Origin: a virus
Virus record (IMG/VR): IMGVR_UViG_3300046471_000259
Location: 1 to 47,497 of that record
Strand: one strand, 5' to 3'
Length of the DNA: 47,497 nucleotides
Shown here: in pieces, positions 1-47,497 of the stretch
How positions within the stretch are numbered: position 1 is the stretch's first letter
Layout of the letters: the number at the start of each line of letters is the position of its first letter
Translations under genes and position numbers: made by a program
Notes under the pieces: generated by a model
What the model saw: only the letters and a program-made list of their open reading frames with translations
Database searches by the model: none
Told to the model about the DNA's origin: nothing

Positions 1-1368
1 ATGATCCATGGTAACGACCATGGAAAACATGGTATCGAGGTCGACGTGCTCACAGACGCAAAAGTGAAGGCAGCCCGCCCCCGCGACGCGGCATACAAGC
101 TGGCCGATTCCAACCAGCTTTATCTCCATGTGTCCCCGGCTGGCGGCAAGCACTGGCGGATGAACTACACCTATGGCCGCAGCGCCAAGAACCCGAATGC
201 CCCCGCTCAGAAGACACTGACGTTCGGGCCCTACCCCGCCGTCACCCTCGTCGAAGCACGCCGCCGCCGTGACGAGGCCAAGGCGATGCTGCTGGAGGGT
301 CGCGACCCCGCCACCGAACGCAGGATCGCGGCGAAAGCGCAGACGTCGGCCACGGGCAATACGTTCAGGTCCGTGGCGACATCCTGGTACGACAAGAAAA
401 AGGGAACGTGGGCACCGCGCCATGCGACCAAGGTCTGGGAGAGCCTCGAGGAAAACGTGTTCGATGAAATCGGATCGCTGCCGATCACGTCGATCGACGC
501 ACCCCGGCTGCTCGACCTGCTGACCGTGGTCGAGAACCGCGGCGCGATCGAGACGGCCCATCGCCTGCGCCAACGTATATCCGCCGTCTTCGTCTACGCG
601 ATTGCGGCTGGCCTCGCGGCCAATGATCCAGCCGCCAGCCTGGGCAAGGCACTCAGTCCGAAACCTCGGGCCCGGCGCCAGCCAGCCTTGACCGACCTGA
701 CCAGCATCCGCGAGATGCTGGTTGCATGCGAAGCCGAGCGAAGCAGGGCCGGCACGAAGCTCGCCCTTCGCCTTCTCGCCCTCACCGTCGTGCGTCCGGG
801 CGAGCTTCGCCACGCGCGTTGGGCGGAGATCGAAGACCTGAATGGGGCTGAGCCGGTCTGGCGCATCCCCGCCGCGCGCATGAAAGGCGACGAGGATCGC
901 AAGGCGGAGGTCGGCGGCGACCATATCGTGCCGCTGTCGACCCAGGCAGTCGCCGTGCTTCGCGCACTGCACCCGCTCACCGGCGATCTCGAGTTGATGT
1001 TCCCCAGCGAGCGGCATCTGCACAAGCCGATCTCGGAGAACACCCTCAGCCAAGTGCTGATCCGGTCGGGGTATTTCCAACGGCATGTGCCCCACGGCTT
1101 CCGCGCCGCCTTCTCGACGATCATGAACGAGCGGGCGGACGCGGCTGGCCGGAGTGGGGATCGCGCGATCATCGACCTTATGCTGGCGCACATTCCCAAG
1201 GATAAGGTGGAGAGCGCCTACAACCGCGCGGCGTTCATGCCGCGCCGCCGTGAACTCGCGCAAGAGTGGGCCGATCTGCTGCTGGAAGGTGCCGCCGCGC
1301 CCGATTCGTTCGTCGGCCAGCCCATGCGGCGATCCATCGGCAATCCGAAGATCAGGGAGCCTGCTTGA
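1..1368 (+). CDS. int: Tyrosine-type prophage integrase (P4/DUF4102 family)
   Basis: Site-specific recombinase that would insert and excise the prophage. An N-terminal DUF4102-like arm-binding domain is followed by a core-binding domain and a C-terminal catalytic domain. Counting from the ATG at base 1, the visible catalytic residues are Arg265 (VRPGEL), His365 and Arg368 (HGFR), His397 (LAH) and nucleophile Tyr407 (AYNR). The start is uncertain. The first 45 bases contain an inverted repeat, and a GTG at base 46 is preceded by a GAGG site at 37-40 with 5-base spacing, so the protein may really be 440 residues beginning V/M-L-T-D-A-K. The 3' end overlaps the convergent AlpA-like gene by 17 bases. 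The family call is firm; the start codon is not. Confidence 0.95.
   Translation: MIHGNDHGKHGIEVDVLTDAKVKAARPRDAAYKLADSNQLYLHVSPAGGKHWRMNYTYGRSAKNPNAPAQKTLTFGPYPAVTLVEARRRRDEAKAMLLEGRDPATERRIAAKAQTSATGNTFRSVATSWYDKKKGTWAPRHATKVWESLEENVFDEIGSLPITSIDAPRLLDLLTVVENRGAIETAHRLRQRISAVFVYAIAAGLAANDPAASLGKALSPKPRARRQPALTDLTSIREMLVACEAERSRAGTKLALRLLALTVVRPGELRHARWAEIEDLNGAEPVWRIPAARMKGDEDRKAEVGGDHIVPLSTQAVAVLRALHPLTGDLELMFPSERHLHKPISENTLSQVLIRSGYFQRHVPHGFRAAFSTIMNERADAAGRSGDRAIIDLMLAHIPKDKVESAYNRAAFMPRRRELAQEWADLLLEGAAAPDSFVGQPMRRSIGNPKIREPA
6..23. repeat. Perfect inverted repeat at the integrase 5' end
   Basis: CCATGGT at 6-12 and ACCATGG at 17-23 flank a 4-base loop, and a further half-copy ACATGGT lies at 27-33. 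It lies upstream of the better-supported GTG start at base 46. It could be a regulatory or recombinase-binding site, or the 5' end of the coding region. Function is inferred only from position. Confidence 0.4.
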
Positions 1369-15755: not shown

Positions 15756-15829
15756 GCGGCCATCGTCCAACGGTAGGGCCTCAGCCTTCCAAGCTGATGA
15801 TGTCGGTTCGAACCCGACTGGCCGCTCCA
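15756..15829 (+). tRNA. tRNA-Gly (anticodon TCC)
   Basis: Complete 74-base cloverleaf. The acceptor stem GCGGCCA/TGGCCGC is perfectly paired. The anticodon arm is CAGC-CTTCCAA-GCTG with anticodon TCC. The T-arm is GTCGG-TTCGAAC-CCGAC. A discriminator T and an encoded CCA end the gene. It would read GGA and GGG glycine codons. It stands alone between the early and late regions rather than at a prophage end, so it looks phage-carried. Confidence 0.95.
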
Positions 15830-43343: not shown

Positions 43344-44480
43344 GTGACATGGGAATATCGTAGACTCCCCGCTGCGAGCCCCGCTAATCGATTAGAGGGA
43401 ACAGAATGGGGCAGTAGTTTGACGCGATTCGGATCGGCGAGAAGCCGCGGCGCATGGTCAGCGGGCAAGCGTCGGGCTTTTCGCAAAATATGGAGCACCG
43501 AGAAGCAGCGCATCCGGCGGGGAAGGAAACCGCGAGAACATCTAAAGCGTCCAGGAAAGCTGCATTGGGTGACGGTCAGAGCACCTCACGCTCTCGACAT
43601 TTTCAGTCAGGATCAGCGTGGCCCGTCTGTTCGGTTTTTCGAAAGCCTCCGCGCAAATTCCCGACGCGCCGGCATCGGGGTAAAAATCGATCTGAGTTTG
43701 ATAGACTTAATCCGACCTAGCGGTGCAGTCATGCTGCTCGCAGAAATGAGTCGCATGGCATTCGGCCAGCCAGCGTCGACCTATCGGATACTCCACGCGA
43801 AGGATCCCGTCGTCCATGCTGTGATGTGCCAGGTCGGCGTATATGACGCGAGCTCGCCTGTCCCAGAGAAAGATAGGGAAGATGTGCGGCACTGGAATTC
43901 AGCGACGGGGGTATTGTCCGAGGGTGAAAAAGGCGGGTCGATTTTGCAGGCGTACGAAGGCCGGATGGCCGATAAACTGACAGGCGATCTATATGCCGGG
44001 ATCGTTGAAGCAATGACCAACACTGTCCACCACGCTTATCGGTCGCCAGCGGGCGAAAAGCTAAAGAAATTCATCGGTCGCCGTTGGTGGGCCCTTTCGC
44101 AGGAACGGAATGGAGAGTTAACCGTCACAATTTGCGATCTTGGCATTGGCATTCCGCGCTCACTTCCGAGGAGTTCAACCTTCGAAAATGCGGCTGTTCG
44201 CGCGGTGTGGATCGCCTTGGGCCTTGACCGCTCGGATGCTAGCGCGATTAAGGTCGCGATCGAACTGGGACGCACCCGCACTGGGCAGGCCGGCCGAGGG
44301 CGCGGGCTATCCGAAATTGTCGACGCGGCGAACCTTTCCAAAGACGGCCGGGTGCTTATATCGAGCAACAAAGGTGTGTTTGTATCGACAGACAGTGCGG
44401 TTAAAGCGCACAATCATTCTCACTCGATTCGCGGGACCCTAATCCATTGGGTCGTCCGCCTGTCGAAGGAGGAAACCTGA
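43344..44480 (+). CDS. STAS-like plus GHKL (histidine-kinase-type) ATPase, cassette gene 1
   Basis: 378 residues. A strongly basic N-terminus (residues ~35-75) is followed by a STAS-like block (GVKIDLSLIDLIRPSGAVML, residues 112-131) and a GHKL ATPase domain with N-box Glu222-x3-Asn226 (VEAMTNTVHHAY), G1 box Asp265-x-Gly-x-Gly (CDLGIGIP) and G2 box GRGRGL (317-322). It resembles STAS-ATPase regulators of the anti-sigma/stress type, here with no kinase phospho-acceptor domain. The GTG start at 43344 has only a weak ribosome site; a TTG at 43419 is possible. It is coupled by one base to the next gene. Confidence 0.85.
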   Translation: MTWEYRRLPAASPANRLEGTEWGSSLTRFGSARSRGAWSAGKRRAFRKIWSTEKQRIRRGRKPREHLKRPGKLHWVTVRAPHALDIFSQDQRGPSVRFFESLRANSRRAGIGVKIDLSLIDLIRPSGAVMLLAEMSRMAFGQPASTYRILHAKDPVVHAVMCQVGVYDASSPVPEKDREDVRHWNSATGVLSEGEKGGSILQAYEGRMADKLTGDLYAGIVEAMTNTVHHAYRSPAGEKLKKFIGRRWWALSQERNGELTVTICDLGIGIPRSLPRSSTFENAAVRAVWIALGLDRSDASAIKVAIELGRTRTGQAGRGRGLSEIVDAANLSKDGRVLISSNKGVFVSTDSAVKAHNHSHSIRGTLIHWVVRLSKEET

Positions 44481-44481
44481 C

Positions 44482-44799
44482 TTGGAGGCCTCTGTGCTTG
44501 ATATCGCTGCGAGCTTTACCCGGTTCCCGGCTGGGCGCTATCGCGAGGATGGACCATACTCTGGACAGCGCTTTCGCGATGATATTCTGATTCCCGCGTT
44601 GCACGCGCATAGCAAAGTCACCATCCTCCTTGATGGGACTATCGGCTATGGATCGTCATTTCTCGAAGAGGTGTTTGGCGGCCTCATTCGGTCCGGACAA
44701 TTTGATGCCGCTGATTTGATGTCGAGAATCGAGCTCGTATCTCGCGATGCGTCGCTCATCAGCGAGATCAAGGACTATCTGTCCACTACTCATCATTGA
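44482..44799 (+). CDS. DUF4325 STAS-like protein, cassette gene 2
   Basis: About 105 residues. GRYREDGPYSGQRFRDDILI followed by LLDGTIGYGSSFLEEVFGGL matches the DUF4325 (STAS-like) signature. Two starts are plausible: TTG 44482 after AAGGAGGA (44466-44473), or GTG 44494 after GGAGG (44484-44488). DUF4325 genes often sit next to GHKL ATPases; the STAS fold suggests it is the ATPase's partner or substrate. The third cassette gene overlaps its 3' end. Confidence 0.85.
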   Translation: MEASVLDIAASFTRFPAGRYREDGPYSGQRFRDDILIPALHAHSKVTILLDGTIGYGSSFLEEVFGGLIRSGQFDAADLMSRIELVSRDASLISEIKDYLSTTHH

Positions 44800-45286
44800 A
44801 CGCGCTGCAGCGGCCCCGCCGCCGTCGTGGTCGTTGTCGCCGCTCCTTGGGCCGGTTGTTGCCGGCCTAATCGTTGTCGCTGGCTGGCTGGTAGTCGAAC
44901 GCTTTGCCCGCCGCCGGGAACACCGCACCGATCTCCGCAGCGCCGTCGCCAGTCTGTCGCTGGCAATTGAGGAAGTGAGAGACGCTGCAATCGTCTTTTA
45001 CCAGCTTCCTGGAAATGACCCTCAATCTTTGTCGCTCGCAGCAACTATCCGGGCGAAAATCGCATCGTTGTCCGATCAGCTAGATATCCTGAAGGGAGCT
45101 AGCTTGAGCATCGATAGTGACGAATTGCTCAAGCGCTTCCGGCAATCCGTGACCGGCGGGGACTTCGACAGCCTCATTCGACAGCCGCTCACGCCGACAT
45201 CCCCTACATTTGTGCGGATGGCAGCTGACGCGCAGGCACTCAATCGAACCGTTCAAATGGCAATGTTCAAGCTGCTTTTGAAATAA
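44747..45286 (+). CDS. Membrane-anchored helical protein, cassette gene 3
   Basis: Up to 179 residues. One transmembrane helix (LLGPVVAGLIVVAGWLVVE, residues ~33-51) with an Arg-rich inside anchor (RFARRREHR), then a cytoplasmic helical domain (LSLAIEEVRDAAIVFYQLPG, IRAKIASLSDQLDILKG). The ATG at 44747 lies inside the DUF4325 gene and has no good ribosome site. A TTG at about 44837 just before the transmembrane helix may be the true start. It is a candidate effector for the ATPase/STAS pair. Confidence 0.7.
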   Translation: MRRSSARSRTICPLLIIERAAAAPPPSWSLSPLLGPVVAGLIVVAGWLVVERFARRREHRTDLRSAVASLSLAIEEVRDAAIVFYQLPGNDPQSLSLAATIRAKIASLSDQLDILKGASLSIDSDELLKRFRQSVTGGDFDSLIRQPLTPTSPTFVRMAADAQALNRTVQMAMFKLLLK

Positions 45287-45431: not shown

Positions 45432-45682
45432 TCACCCGACCTGGATCCGGCCGAGTATCTCTTTGCTGACCTTGAAATGCGGGACCCGCGTTGCCGGGAC
45501 GGCGACGCTTTCACCCGTCTTCGGATTACGGCCTACGCGGGCAATCCTACTGCGTGTCGAAAAAACGCCGAACCCTCGGATTTCTACGCGGCCACCATCC
45601 ACGAGACGGCGGCTGCGACTTCTTGGGCAGTCCATGCCGGATTATCCTGGGCAAGCACCCGCCACAGATCTCGCTTTGTCAT
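45432..45682 (-). pseudogene. ihfB: IHF-beta-like (HU/IHF family) pseudogene
   Basis: Reverse strand. The 5' part encodes [20 protein letters not shown] then EVAAAV, the N-terminal helices of an IHF-beta protein, but soon meets a stop. A second frame carries [20 protein letters not shown] and [20 protein letters not shown], the IHF arm and body. Aligning with E. coli IhfB from memory, 11 codons between Val26-equivalent and Leu37-equivalent are replaced by 2 bases, implying a 31-base deletion that shifts the frame. The gene is therefore broken. Confidence 0.75.
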
Positions 45683-46062
45683 CGTGGCATTCCCCCATGA
45701 ATCCCTGATATCACTATCCTGCGCGGCGCAATGCCTGCGCACTCAGTCTCGCGCAATACCTATGATCGCAGCGGTGATTTGCGATGCAATGATAACGCGA
45801 ACCTTCACCCAACAGGGCCCTGACTCCACTCCAGAGGGCGTGCACCCTATGAAAGGTGGCTGCGGGAAGTGGTAGTTTGGGGACTGACAAGCCCCGCAGC
45901 CAAGAGCACCTTGCCTCCCGCAACTGCGAGCGTCAAGCGGACGTGAAAAAGCCCGGCGCGGGTTGGGATCTGGCCGGGGCTTCTATGCCGCAGAGACTGC
46001 CCCTCGCTGCGATGCAACATTAGCATCTCGGGCGTCTGCACTCAGTCATGCTAGTCGATCGT
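45683..46062. other. 380-base gene-free region with a reverse terminator
   Basis: No open frame here has convincing composition. It contains the reverse intrinsic terminator at 45946-45982, listed separately. The rest shows no repeat, tRNA or promoter I can support. It lies between the IHF pseudogene and the small-gene operon, a possible prophage/flank boundary. Confidence 0.4.
45946..45982 (-). terminator. Reverse intrinsic terminator for the right-end operon
   Basis: On the reverse strand, AAGCCCCGGC (45982-45973) pairs with GCCGGGC(TT) (45957-45949) around a loop, with one bulged base, followed by TTTTT (45950-45946). It would stop the operon read from 47497 to 46063. Confidence 0.6.
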
Positions 46063-47049: not shown

Positions 47050-47231
47050 CGTGATGGTCCTTCCAGTGCAGCCAGGGCGGCGATGAGACAGCGCCGCGCC
47101 CAGCGTATTTCGGTATCGGTAGGCGGACGGTCCTGAAAACGCCTGAGTATCGCCGTGGCATGCTCGACCTGCTGCCATGCTGGCATAGCCGGGCCGTTGT
47201 CGTTCCGGCCCGGATAGGCTGCGCCGATCAC
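47046..47231 (-). CDS. Hypothetical protein (61 aa)
   Basis: MIGAAYPGRNDNGPAMPAWQ then a helical part with ILRRFQDRPPTDTEIRWARR. Overlaps both neighbours by 4 bases. No family recognised; a small accessory protein by position. Confidence 0.55.
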   Translation of the reverse strand: MIGAAYPGRNDNGPAMPAWQQVEHATAILRRFQDRPPTDTEIRWARRCLIAALAALEGPSR

Positions 47232-47497
47232 AGTGTCGACCAGTCCAGTTCAGCGTCGTCTACAGCGTCGAACATCTCCGGATCCGCGCCGGTGTCGCCC
47301 AGCCGCTTGCGCACCGCATCGGGCCCGCCTTCCTTGGGAAAACCCCGGTCCGACTTTGCGATCGTGGCCAGCTGCCCGAGGAACCCGCCCCGGCTGGTCT
47401 GTTCGAGAACCCAGCGCCCGAACGGGATCGCCTGCAAGGGAGCGTCCGCGACATTGATGCGGGCATCGGTCCAGTCGTGCGTCGAAAGATTGGCCAT
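47228..47497 (-). CDS. YozE-like SAM-domain small protein (89 aa), at window end
   Basis: PFGRWVLEQTSRGGFLGQLA, DRGFPKEGGPDAVRKRLGD and a C-terminal acidic Asp-rich end match the YozE SAM-like pattern. Its start codon is the last base triplet of the window, so promoter and upstream genes are outside. First visible gene of the right-end reverse operon. Function of such domains is not established. Confidence 0.7.
   Translation of the reverse strand: MANLSTHDWTDARINVADAPLQAIPFGRWVLEQTSRGGFLGQLATIAKSDRGFPKEGGPDAVRKRLGDTGADPEMFDAVDDAELDWSTL

Follow-up and report, generated by a model that had tools for sequence, protein, structure and literature searches.

What do three genes for a kinase-like protein, a small STAS-like protein and a membrane protein do in a phage? 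The question is raised by a linear IMG/VR virus record of 47,497 bases, which is referred to below, over its whole length, as the window. The three genes, hereafter the triad, lie in the forward (+) direction near its right end, 3' of the lysis genes (Table 1). Our annotation agrees with the anatomy given in the original prediction, namely a gene combining STAS-like and GHKL domains, a DUF4325 gene and a gene for a helical membrane protein with one span, and the GHKL motifs are as described there. None of the three window proteins matched PADLOC or NCBIfam.

A triad beyond the lysis genes of a phage record

Besides a tyrosine integrase, the window encodes a DnaB-like helicase, a GpA-type terminase and a lambda-type portal. 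The genes just 5' of the triad, read by eye from a lipobox and overlapping frames, are what we take to be endolysin, holin-like, Rz and Rz1 genes; their order is matched by homologues in other phages, and the endolysin gene matched no Pfam family at E 1e-3. In keeping with the cargo position that had been proposed for the triad, nine viral contigs sharing the endolysin or Rz gene with the window at 40-86% identity contained no kinase, DUF4325 or gene 3 profile match in the flank examined, which spanned 1.1-6.0 kb past the last shared lysis gene. Furthermore, the window gene at 47228-47497 has a relative in contig L305 that lies immediately next to Rz1, whereas in the window ~4.1 kb, triad included, separate the two. 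Cargo may also enter between Rz and Rz1, as the homologues of these genes are separated by ~1.3 kb in the related phage L299 (7233-8499).

The G+C content of positions 44001-45000 (57.5%) is low for the record but is not its lowest bin, and promoter and terminator patterns in the triad region occurred at chance level. An IHF/HU-like coding sequence seen by eye downstream of gene 3 appears to be broken, as its frame, which starts near 45688, stops after ~32 codons and the remainder lies in another frame.

Table 1. Positions of the triad, its motifs and other features in the window.
Feature	Position	Strand	Description
Tyrosine integrase	1-1368		
tRNA-Gly (tcc) gene	15756-15829	+	Inside the phage record; overlaps ORF 15712-16500
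Gene 1	43344-44480	+	378 aa; STAS-like and GHKL, probable serine kinase (VapK/CapK-like); start GTG 43344 or TTG 43419
STAS-like domain of gene 1	43563-43889	+	Residues 74-182
N-box of gene 1	44007-44033	+	EAMTNTVHH (E222, N226, H230)
G1 box of gene 1	44136-44156	+	DLGIGIP, residues 265-271
G2 box of gene 1	44295-44309	+	RGRGL, residues 318-322
Shine-Dalgarno-like AAGGAGG	44466-44472	+	By eye; ahead of gene 2
Gene 2	44482-44799	+	105 aa; DUF4325 (STAS-like), probable phospho-switch/antitoxin (VapS-like)
Ser58 and Ser59 codons of gene 2	44653-44658	+	Ser58 aligned with the VapS phospho-site serine
Gene 3	44747-45286	+	One-span membrane protein with helical domain, probable effector; start uncertain (ATG 44747 or TTG 44834), stop end 45286
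Membrane span of gene 3	44846-44902	+	About residues 34-52 of the 179-aa reading; followed by basic RFARRREHRTDLR
IHF/HU-like coding sequence	45432-45705	-	By eye; seemingly broken

A kinase-like protein and its candidate phospho-switch

The closest known system to the triad is VapKSC, a three-gene anti-phage toxin-antitoxin system made of a kinase, a STAS antitoxin and a PIN toxin, as described by Chambers et al. (EMBO J 2026, PMC13373217). According to the same paper, VapS inhibits the VapC toxin, the S48E substitution at the phospho-site serine stops inhibition, and the ~2-log protection against phage Bas42 is lost in VapC, VapS S48A and VapK F54A mutants. The authors also describe CapK, an HTH-STAS-GHKL kinase activated by ssDNA that phosphorylates the STAS repressor CapS (PMC13373217).

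Gene 1 matched Pfam HATPase_c_2 at E 1.8e-4, under the family cut-off, and phrog_3364, a family of unknown function, at E 1.1e-46, while no Pfam HTH family matched at E up to 1. Its AlphaFold2 model, built from 97 sequences (pLDDT 84.8), has strands and helices in STAS-like order at residues 74-182, followed by a GHKL domain (184-372); we call the N-terminal part STAS-like on the basis of this order of elements and of alignment with the kinases of the PIN-type triads described below. The best solved matches of residues 183-375 were SpoIIAB (1th8_A; Z 13.4, 2.7 A over 127 residues) and RsbW (6m37_C; Z 11.1), both of which are kinases of STAS proteins, in line with the anti-sigma-style kinase fold that had been foreseen. 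E222, N226, D265, G267, G319 and G321 are invariant in all 139 different kinases compared.

Residues 1-25 of the model have a pLDDT under 50, so gene 1 may start at the second of its alternative codons, the TTG. Ahead of the STAS-like domain lies a basic stretch with 18 K/R in residues 26-72, modelled as a single long basic helix at 31-58. In kinases of the window branch this N-terminal extension has a median length of 44 residues, ~35% of them K/R, and the N-box is followed by a WW segment, whose two tryptophans occur in 137 (W248) and 133 (W249) of 139 kinases. Both the extension and the segment are absent from the eight PIN-type kinases aligned, and they distinguish the triad kinase from that of VapKSC.

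The TTG start of gene 2 lies 9 bases behind AAGGAGG. The protein matched Pfam DUF4325 (E 1.4e-12) and no other family, and consists of the STAS-like domain alone; when the profile of gene 1 was compared directly with that of DUF4325, no relation was detected. Position 58 is occupied by Ser in 146 and by Thr in 4 of 164 different DUF4325 proteins, and Ser occupies position 59 in 163 of them, partly by search design, since the pattern of the genome scan required Ser59 and thereby fixed it in the 80 genome loci. In sets free of that constraint, Ser59 is found in 76 of 76 different viral-contig sequences and in 11 of 12 annotated ones. The window branch has its near-invariant serine at position 59, directly following the residue that aligns with the VapS phospho-site. 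The remark in the original prediction that gene 1 lacks a phospho-acceptor domain is fair as far as that gene goes; the likely phospho-acceptor of the triad is gene 2.

Like the triad, CapK and CapS combine a GHKL kinase that has a STAS domain with an adjoining STAS phospho-acceptor; however, CapK carries an HTH, for which gene 1 has no match, and CapS has a DNA-binding wHTH and represses a downstream operon, whereas gene 2 is only a 105-aa STAS-like domain. SpoIIAB/SpoIIAA and RsbW/RsbV share with the triad the GHKL kinase fold, the N-box and the idea of a serine phospho-acceptor in a STAS protein, but the triad has no sigma factor gene and its third partner is a membrane protein.

Linkage, spread and PIN-type sister triads

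Single-sequence searches found no relatives of gene 1 in viral or genome contigs, whereas an alignment of DUF4325 did find loci, 398 confirmed in genomes and 202 confirmed in viral contigs, of which the best 80 of each were kept. Linkage was counted at the 145 loci, near copies included, where the flanks of gene 2 reached 1.4 kb or more upstream and 0.7 kb or more downstream. At 134 of these, a kinase match upstream was accompanied by an ORF of at least 110 aa downstream, and by these criteria one partner was missing at the other 11; the three-gene linkage proposed for the cassette is therefore conserved in its homologues. The downstream ORF had a strong N-terminal hydrophobic span (a 17-residue stretch with a mean hydropathy of at least 1.3 within the first 60 residues) at 125 of these 134 loci. 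A stricter 19-residue test found an N-terminal span in 112 of 169 third ORFs; among other ORFs of comparable length at the same loci, 68 of 721 had one. Exceptions to the triad include Vibrio vulnificus L012, which has no kinase gene, and Pseudomonas L008, which has neither partner; furthermore, gene 1 is cut short and adjoins an IS element in A. wuhouensis, and is short (174 aa) in an Aeromonas copy.

Hosts of the 80 genome loci (the best 80 of 398) were 75 Pseudomonadota, 2 Thermodesulfobacteriota, 2 Bacteroidota and one unplaced. The triad was also found on plasmids of Novosphingobium, Vibrio alfacsensis, V. scophthalmi, Acinetobacter and Leptospira, in a Helicobacter prophage and, beside an XRE repressor, in a Pasteurella record. 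Two phages carry the same gene order and kinds of protein as the window: Marinobacter phage AS1 (AS1_41, AS1_40 and AS1_39, beside a Cro/CI regulator) and Francisella phage KIRK (Fhv_0046-0048, between CI and the integrase in the published gene table, PMC7924643). Their triads adjoin a repressor, whereas that of the window follows the lysis genes. In the literature passages covering these phages, the triad genes are annotated only as hypothetical, DUF4325 or TM and are neither named nor tested. Relatives of the window integrase lay near 3 of the 80 genome loci and none of the 80 viral loci (the best 80 of 202), so by that test the cassette is not regularly integrase-adjacent. A PADLOC scan confined to ORFs neighbouring the cassette (E 1e-10; 124 of 130 ORFs, six short ones being left out) matched AriA (3 members), mad3 (3), mad8 (2), HEC-01A and MzaA, as well as a type II methyltransferase and type I specificity subunits.

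All three triad genes are under purifying selection. Across twelve close pairs, several of which have high dS, dN/dS was 0.04-0.19 for gene 1 (8 computable), 0.03-0.14 for gene 2 (10 computable) and 0.05-0.20 for gene 3 (8 computable).

Sixty places were picked for a short open frame, which was present as an ORF in 59 and lay behind a motif-defined kinase gene in 35. The third position behind those 35 kinases was taken by a PIN-motif protein in 13 cases, by a member of the gene 3 family in 7, by another span protein in 4 and by something else in 3, and the remaining 8 had no third ORF; Pfam confirmed PIN in 9 of the 26 third proteins scanned. Among six Bacteroidota third genes tested, five matched PIN (one below the cut-off) and one, which lies behind a gene fusing GHKL and DUF4325, matched RhuM. 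In these PIN-type triads a PIN nuclease takes the place of gene 3. By hhalign, the match of the window's kinase family to 12 PIN-type kinases extended across the STAS and GHKL parts alike (99.4%, E 6.1e-22), and its DUF4325 family matched 14 PIN-type switches with serine aligned on serine (96.3%, E 1.5e-9). Judged by these profile alignments, genes 1 and 2 are homologous to the kinase and switch of the PIN-type triads. A quick kinase tree was built from 93 rows, with a random sample supplying 50 of the gene-3-type ones. Its 13 PIN-type rows fell within one group of 14 (SH-aLRT support 97), and 65 gene-3-type rows together with 3 of 4 other-span rows formed a group of 68 (SH-aLRT 95).

VapKSC resembles the triad in its gene order of kinase, STAS protein and third gene, in a kinase with STAS and GHKL domains and no HTH, in the membership of VapS in DUF4325 with a serine at the matching place, and in its mobile, phage-related settings. 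The printed fragment of Escherichia VapS, the antitoxin of solved structure 9Z7O, matched Pfam DUF4325 at E 8.6e-14. A search with the DUF4325 profile did not significantly match VapS among solved structures (E 0.27, and E 0.39 with a larger alignment), so the link to VapS runs via the Pfam family and the PIN-type set. The two systems differ in the third gene, which encodes a PIN nuclease in VapKSC and a one-span helical membrane protein in the triad, and in their kinases, those of the triad forming a separate branch. Furthermore, columns aligned to the PIN-type phenylalanine are mostly K/R or aliphatic in the window branch, and the aromatic ssDNA contact (VapK F54, CapK W68) seems not to be conserved there, the mapping of these columns being uncertain.

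The membrane protein and the role of the triad

Gene 3 matched no family in four libraries (best PHROG E 0.23), including no Pfam PIN match at E up to 1, and tblastn found no match to it in phages or plasmids. PIN was likewise absent from the 17 families found for 112 relatives of gene 3 (E up to 0.01), among which no Pfam family occurred in more than two members, and PADLOC gave these relatives weak scattered matches only (LeoBC in 6, best E 2.5e-4). The AlphaFold2 model of gene 3 (pLDDT 90.5) is an all-helical bundle with one hydrophobic span, in which a long helix at 34-86 starts in the membrane and folds back with three more helices into the bundle. In the window protein, six K/R flank the span after it and none before it, and basic residues follow rather than precede the span in 139 of 144 non-redundant third proteins; by the positive-inside rule, the helical domain should therefore be cytoplasmic. 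A structural search of gene 3 gave no significant match (best Foldseek E 0.0097) and no known toxin domain. Against BFVD, Foldseek found none at E 0.001; the top row, A0A3G2YTK2 (159 aa, E 0.0032), has the length of AS1_39, an agreement in length only. Coiled-coil matches from a PDB sequence search with the gene 3 profile were unconvincing, and SLATT_4, a 2TM effector family, was matched weakly by one other third gene (E 0.0045, under the cut-off) and was not relied on. This third gene lies behind kinase and DUF4325 genes (L280 1578-2090, minus strand; L235 is the same place).

We propose, with a probability of about 0.6, that the triad works as a VapKSC-type switch of three parts, carried by the phage and ending in a membrane effector. 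Its linkage, homology, conserved residues and topology are observed or strongly indicated, whereas we infer that phosphorylation, binding and release take place, that gene 3 is toxic, that the system serves defence and what signal it answers to. At rest, gene 2 would bind the cytoplasmic helical domain of gene 3 and keep it inactive. Upon infection or damage, the STAS-GHKL kinase encoded by gene 1 would phosphorylate gene 2 at Ser58 or Ser59, and phosphorylated gene 2 would release gene 3, which would then act at the inner membrane, either arresting or killing the cell or blocking the incoming phage. Descent from the same kinase-switch pair leads us to expect that gene 1 phosphorylates gene 2 and that gene 2 first restrains the third protein and later lets it go. 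Likewise, since the third protein is membrane-anchored here and a PIN toxin occupies its place in the sister triads, the likely end is membrane damage or a block that stops the infected cell. The switch is probably anti-phage, and gene 2 may best be read as a phosphorylated switch and antitoxin. The original prediction stands in part: the unit, the fold and the cargo position hold, the supposed coupling of a switch to a membrane protein has a direct published precedent in VapKSC, and superinfection exclusion and stress control are candidate roles, but the DUF4325 protein is better read as the phosphorylated switch or antitoxin.

Gene 3 could instead be a sensor or membrane anchor that feels a change in the membrane and recruits or activates the kinase, with gene 2 acting on a host target elsewhere as the output. 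The closest structural neighbours of its bundle are four-helix receptor sensor domains (QseE, NarQ and chemoreceptors; Z up to 12.8), and gene 3 is a constant partner, whereas an effector might be swapped more often within a branch. However, such sensor domains are periplasmic and lie between two spans, while gene 3 has one span followed by basic residues that place its domain inside, and Z under ~13 for helical bundles may reflect only a common arrangement. Moreover, the sister-triad slot holds PIN nucleases, which are toxins in the published case, and gene 2, with its 105 aa, has no DNA-binding extension for acting elsewhere. We consider this role of gene 3 unlikely.

The probability is smaller still that the triad is an ordinary bacterial regulatory or stress partner-switch, acquired by phages by chance and without a role in phage conflict, as might be supposed from the anti-sigma kinase fold of gene 1 and from the many genomic DUF4325 proteins that are regulator-like single chains of HTH, GHKL and DUF4325. 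The window triad has no sigma factor, HTH or wHTH, copies occur on phages and plasmids of distant hosts, next to the repressor in AS1 and KIRK, and related phages lack it. Finally, a device serving the phage itself, with the membrane protein acting in the timing of lysis or induction, would suit a triad that directly follows the lysis genes in the same direction and the fact that DNA damage both induces prophages and activates CapK, but is highly improbable given the triads near the repressor in AS1, KIRK and the Pasteurella record, plasmid copies that have no lysis to time, and the nine phages with related lysis genes but no triad.

Under the three-part switch with a membrane effector, a trigger by ssDNA, for which there is precedent, would also let prophage induction fire the switch, and the contact residue seems to differ. 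We advance more tentatively, as a possibility that is less likely than not, a distinct and mainly proteobacterial kinase-DUF4325 immunity branch in which the phospho-switch would directly gate a membrane-killing protein, the kinase would respond to a cue other than the ssDNA of CapK and VapK, perhaps via its basic N-terminal extension and WW segment, and phages and plasmids would carry the system as a portable weapon against competitors.

The kinase-switch core has been known since June 2026. The membrane-effector branch was not found in the passages searched of the literature (PMC13373217, the one relevant paper, and PMC7924643, PMC7824862 and PMC9341999), where it has neither a name nor a test; in the text of PMC13373217, 'transmembrane' and 'pore' are absent and 'membrane' occurs four times, never for an effector. 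The statement that no known system has this exact triad agrees with these sources but has to be tempered by VapKSC as a close published relative. If our reading is true, a membrane effector joins the transcription repressor and the RNA-cutting toxin as another output of the GHKL-STAS phospho-switch published in 2026, which would make this switch a general, exchangeable trigger. The membrane branch is common (398 genome and 202 viral loci confirmed) and forms an orderly family with conserved residues.

DUF4325 also occurs in other architectures. Whole-genome family searches found it in 54 of 369 genomes of the class of genome G001 and in 50 of 296 genomes of the phylum of genome G003. A common form is a single chain of ~340-350 aa (e.g. 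L180 685-1701 and L196 318-1361, the two tested), in which the kinase-like domain and its STAS-like partner are fused behind a DNA-binding HTH domain. Fusions of GHKL and DUF4325 without HTH (415-428 aa) were found at L213 514-2888 and L230 508-1755, and the RhuM-family gene next to the former is perhaps another kind of third gene.
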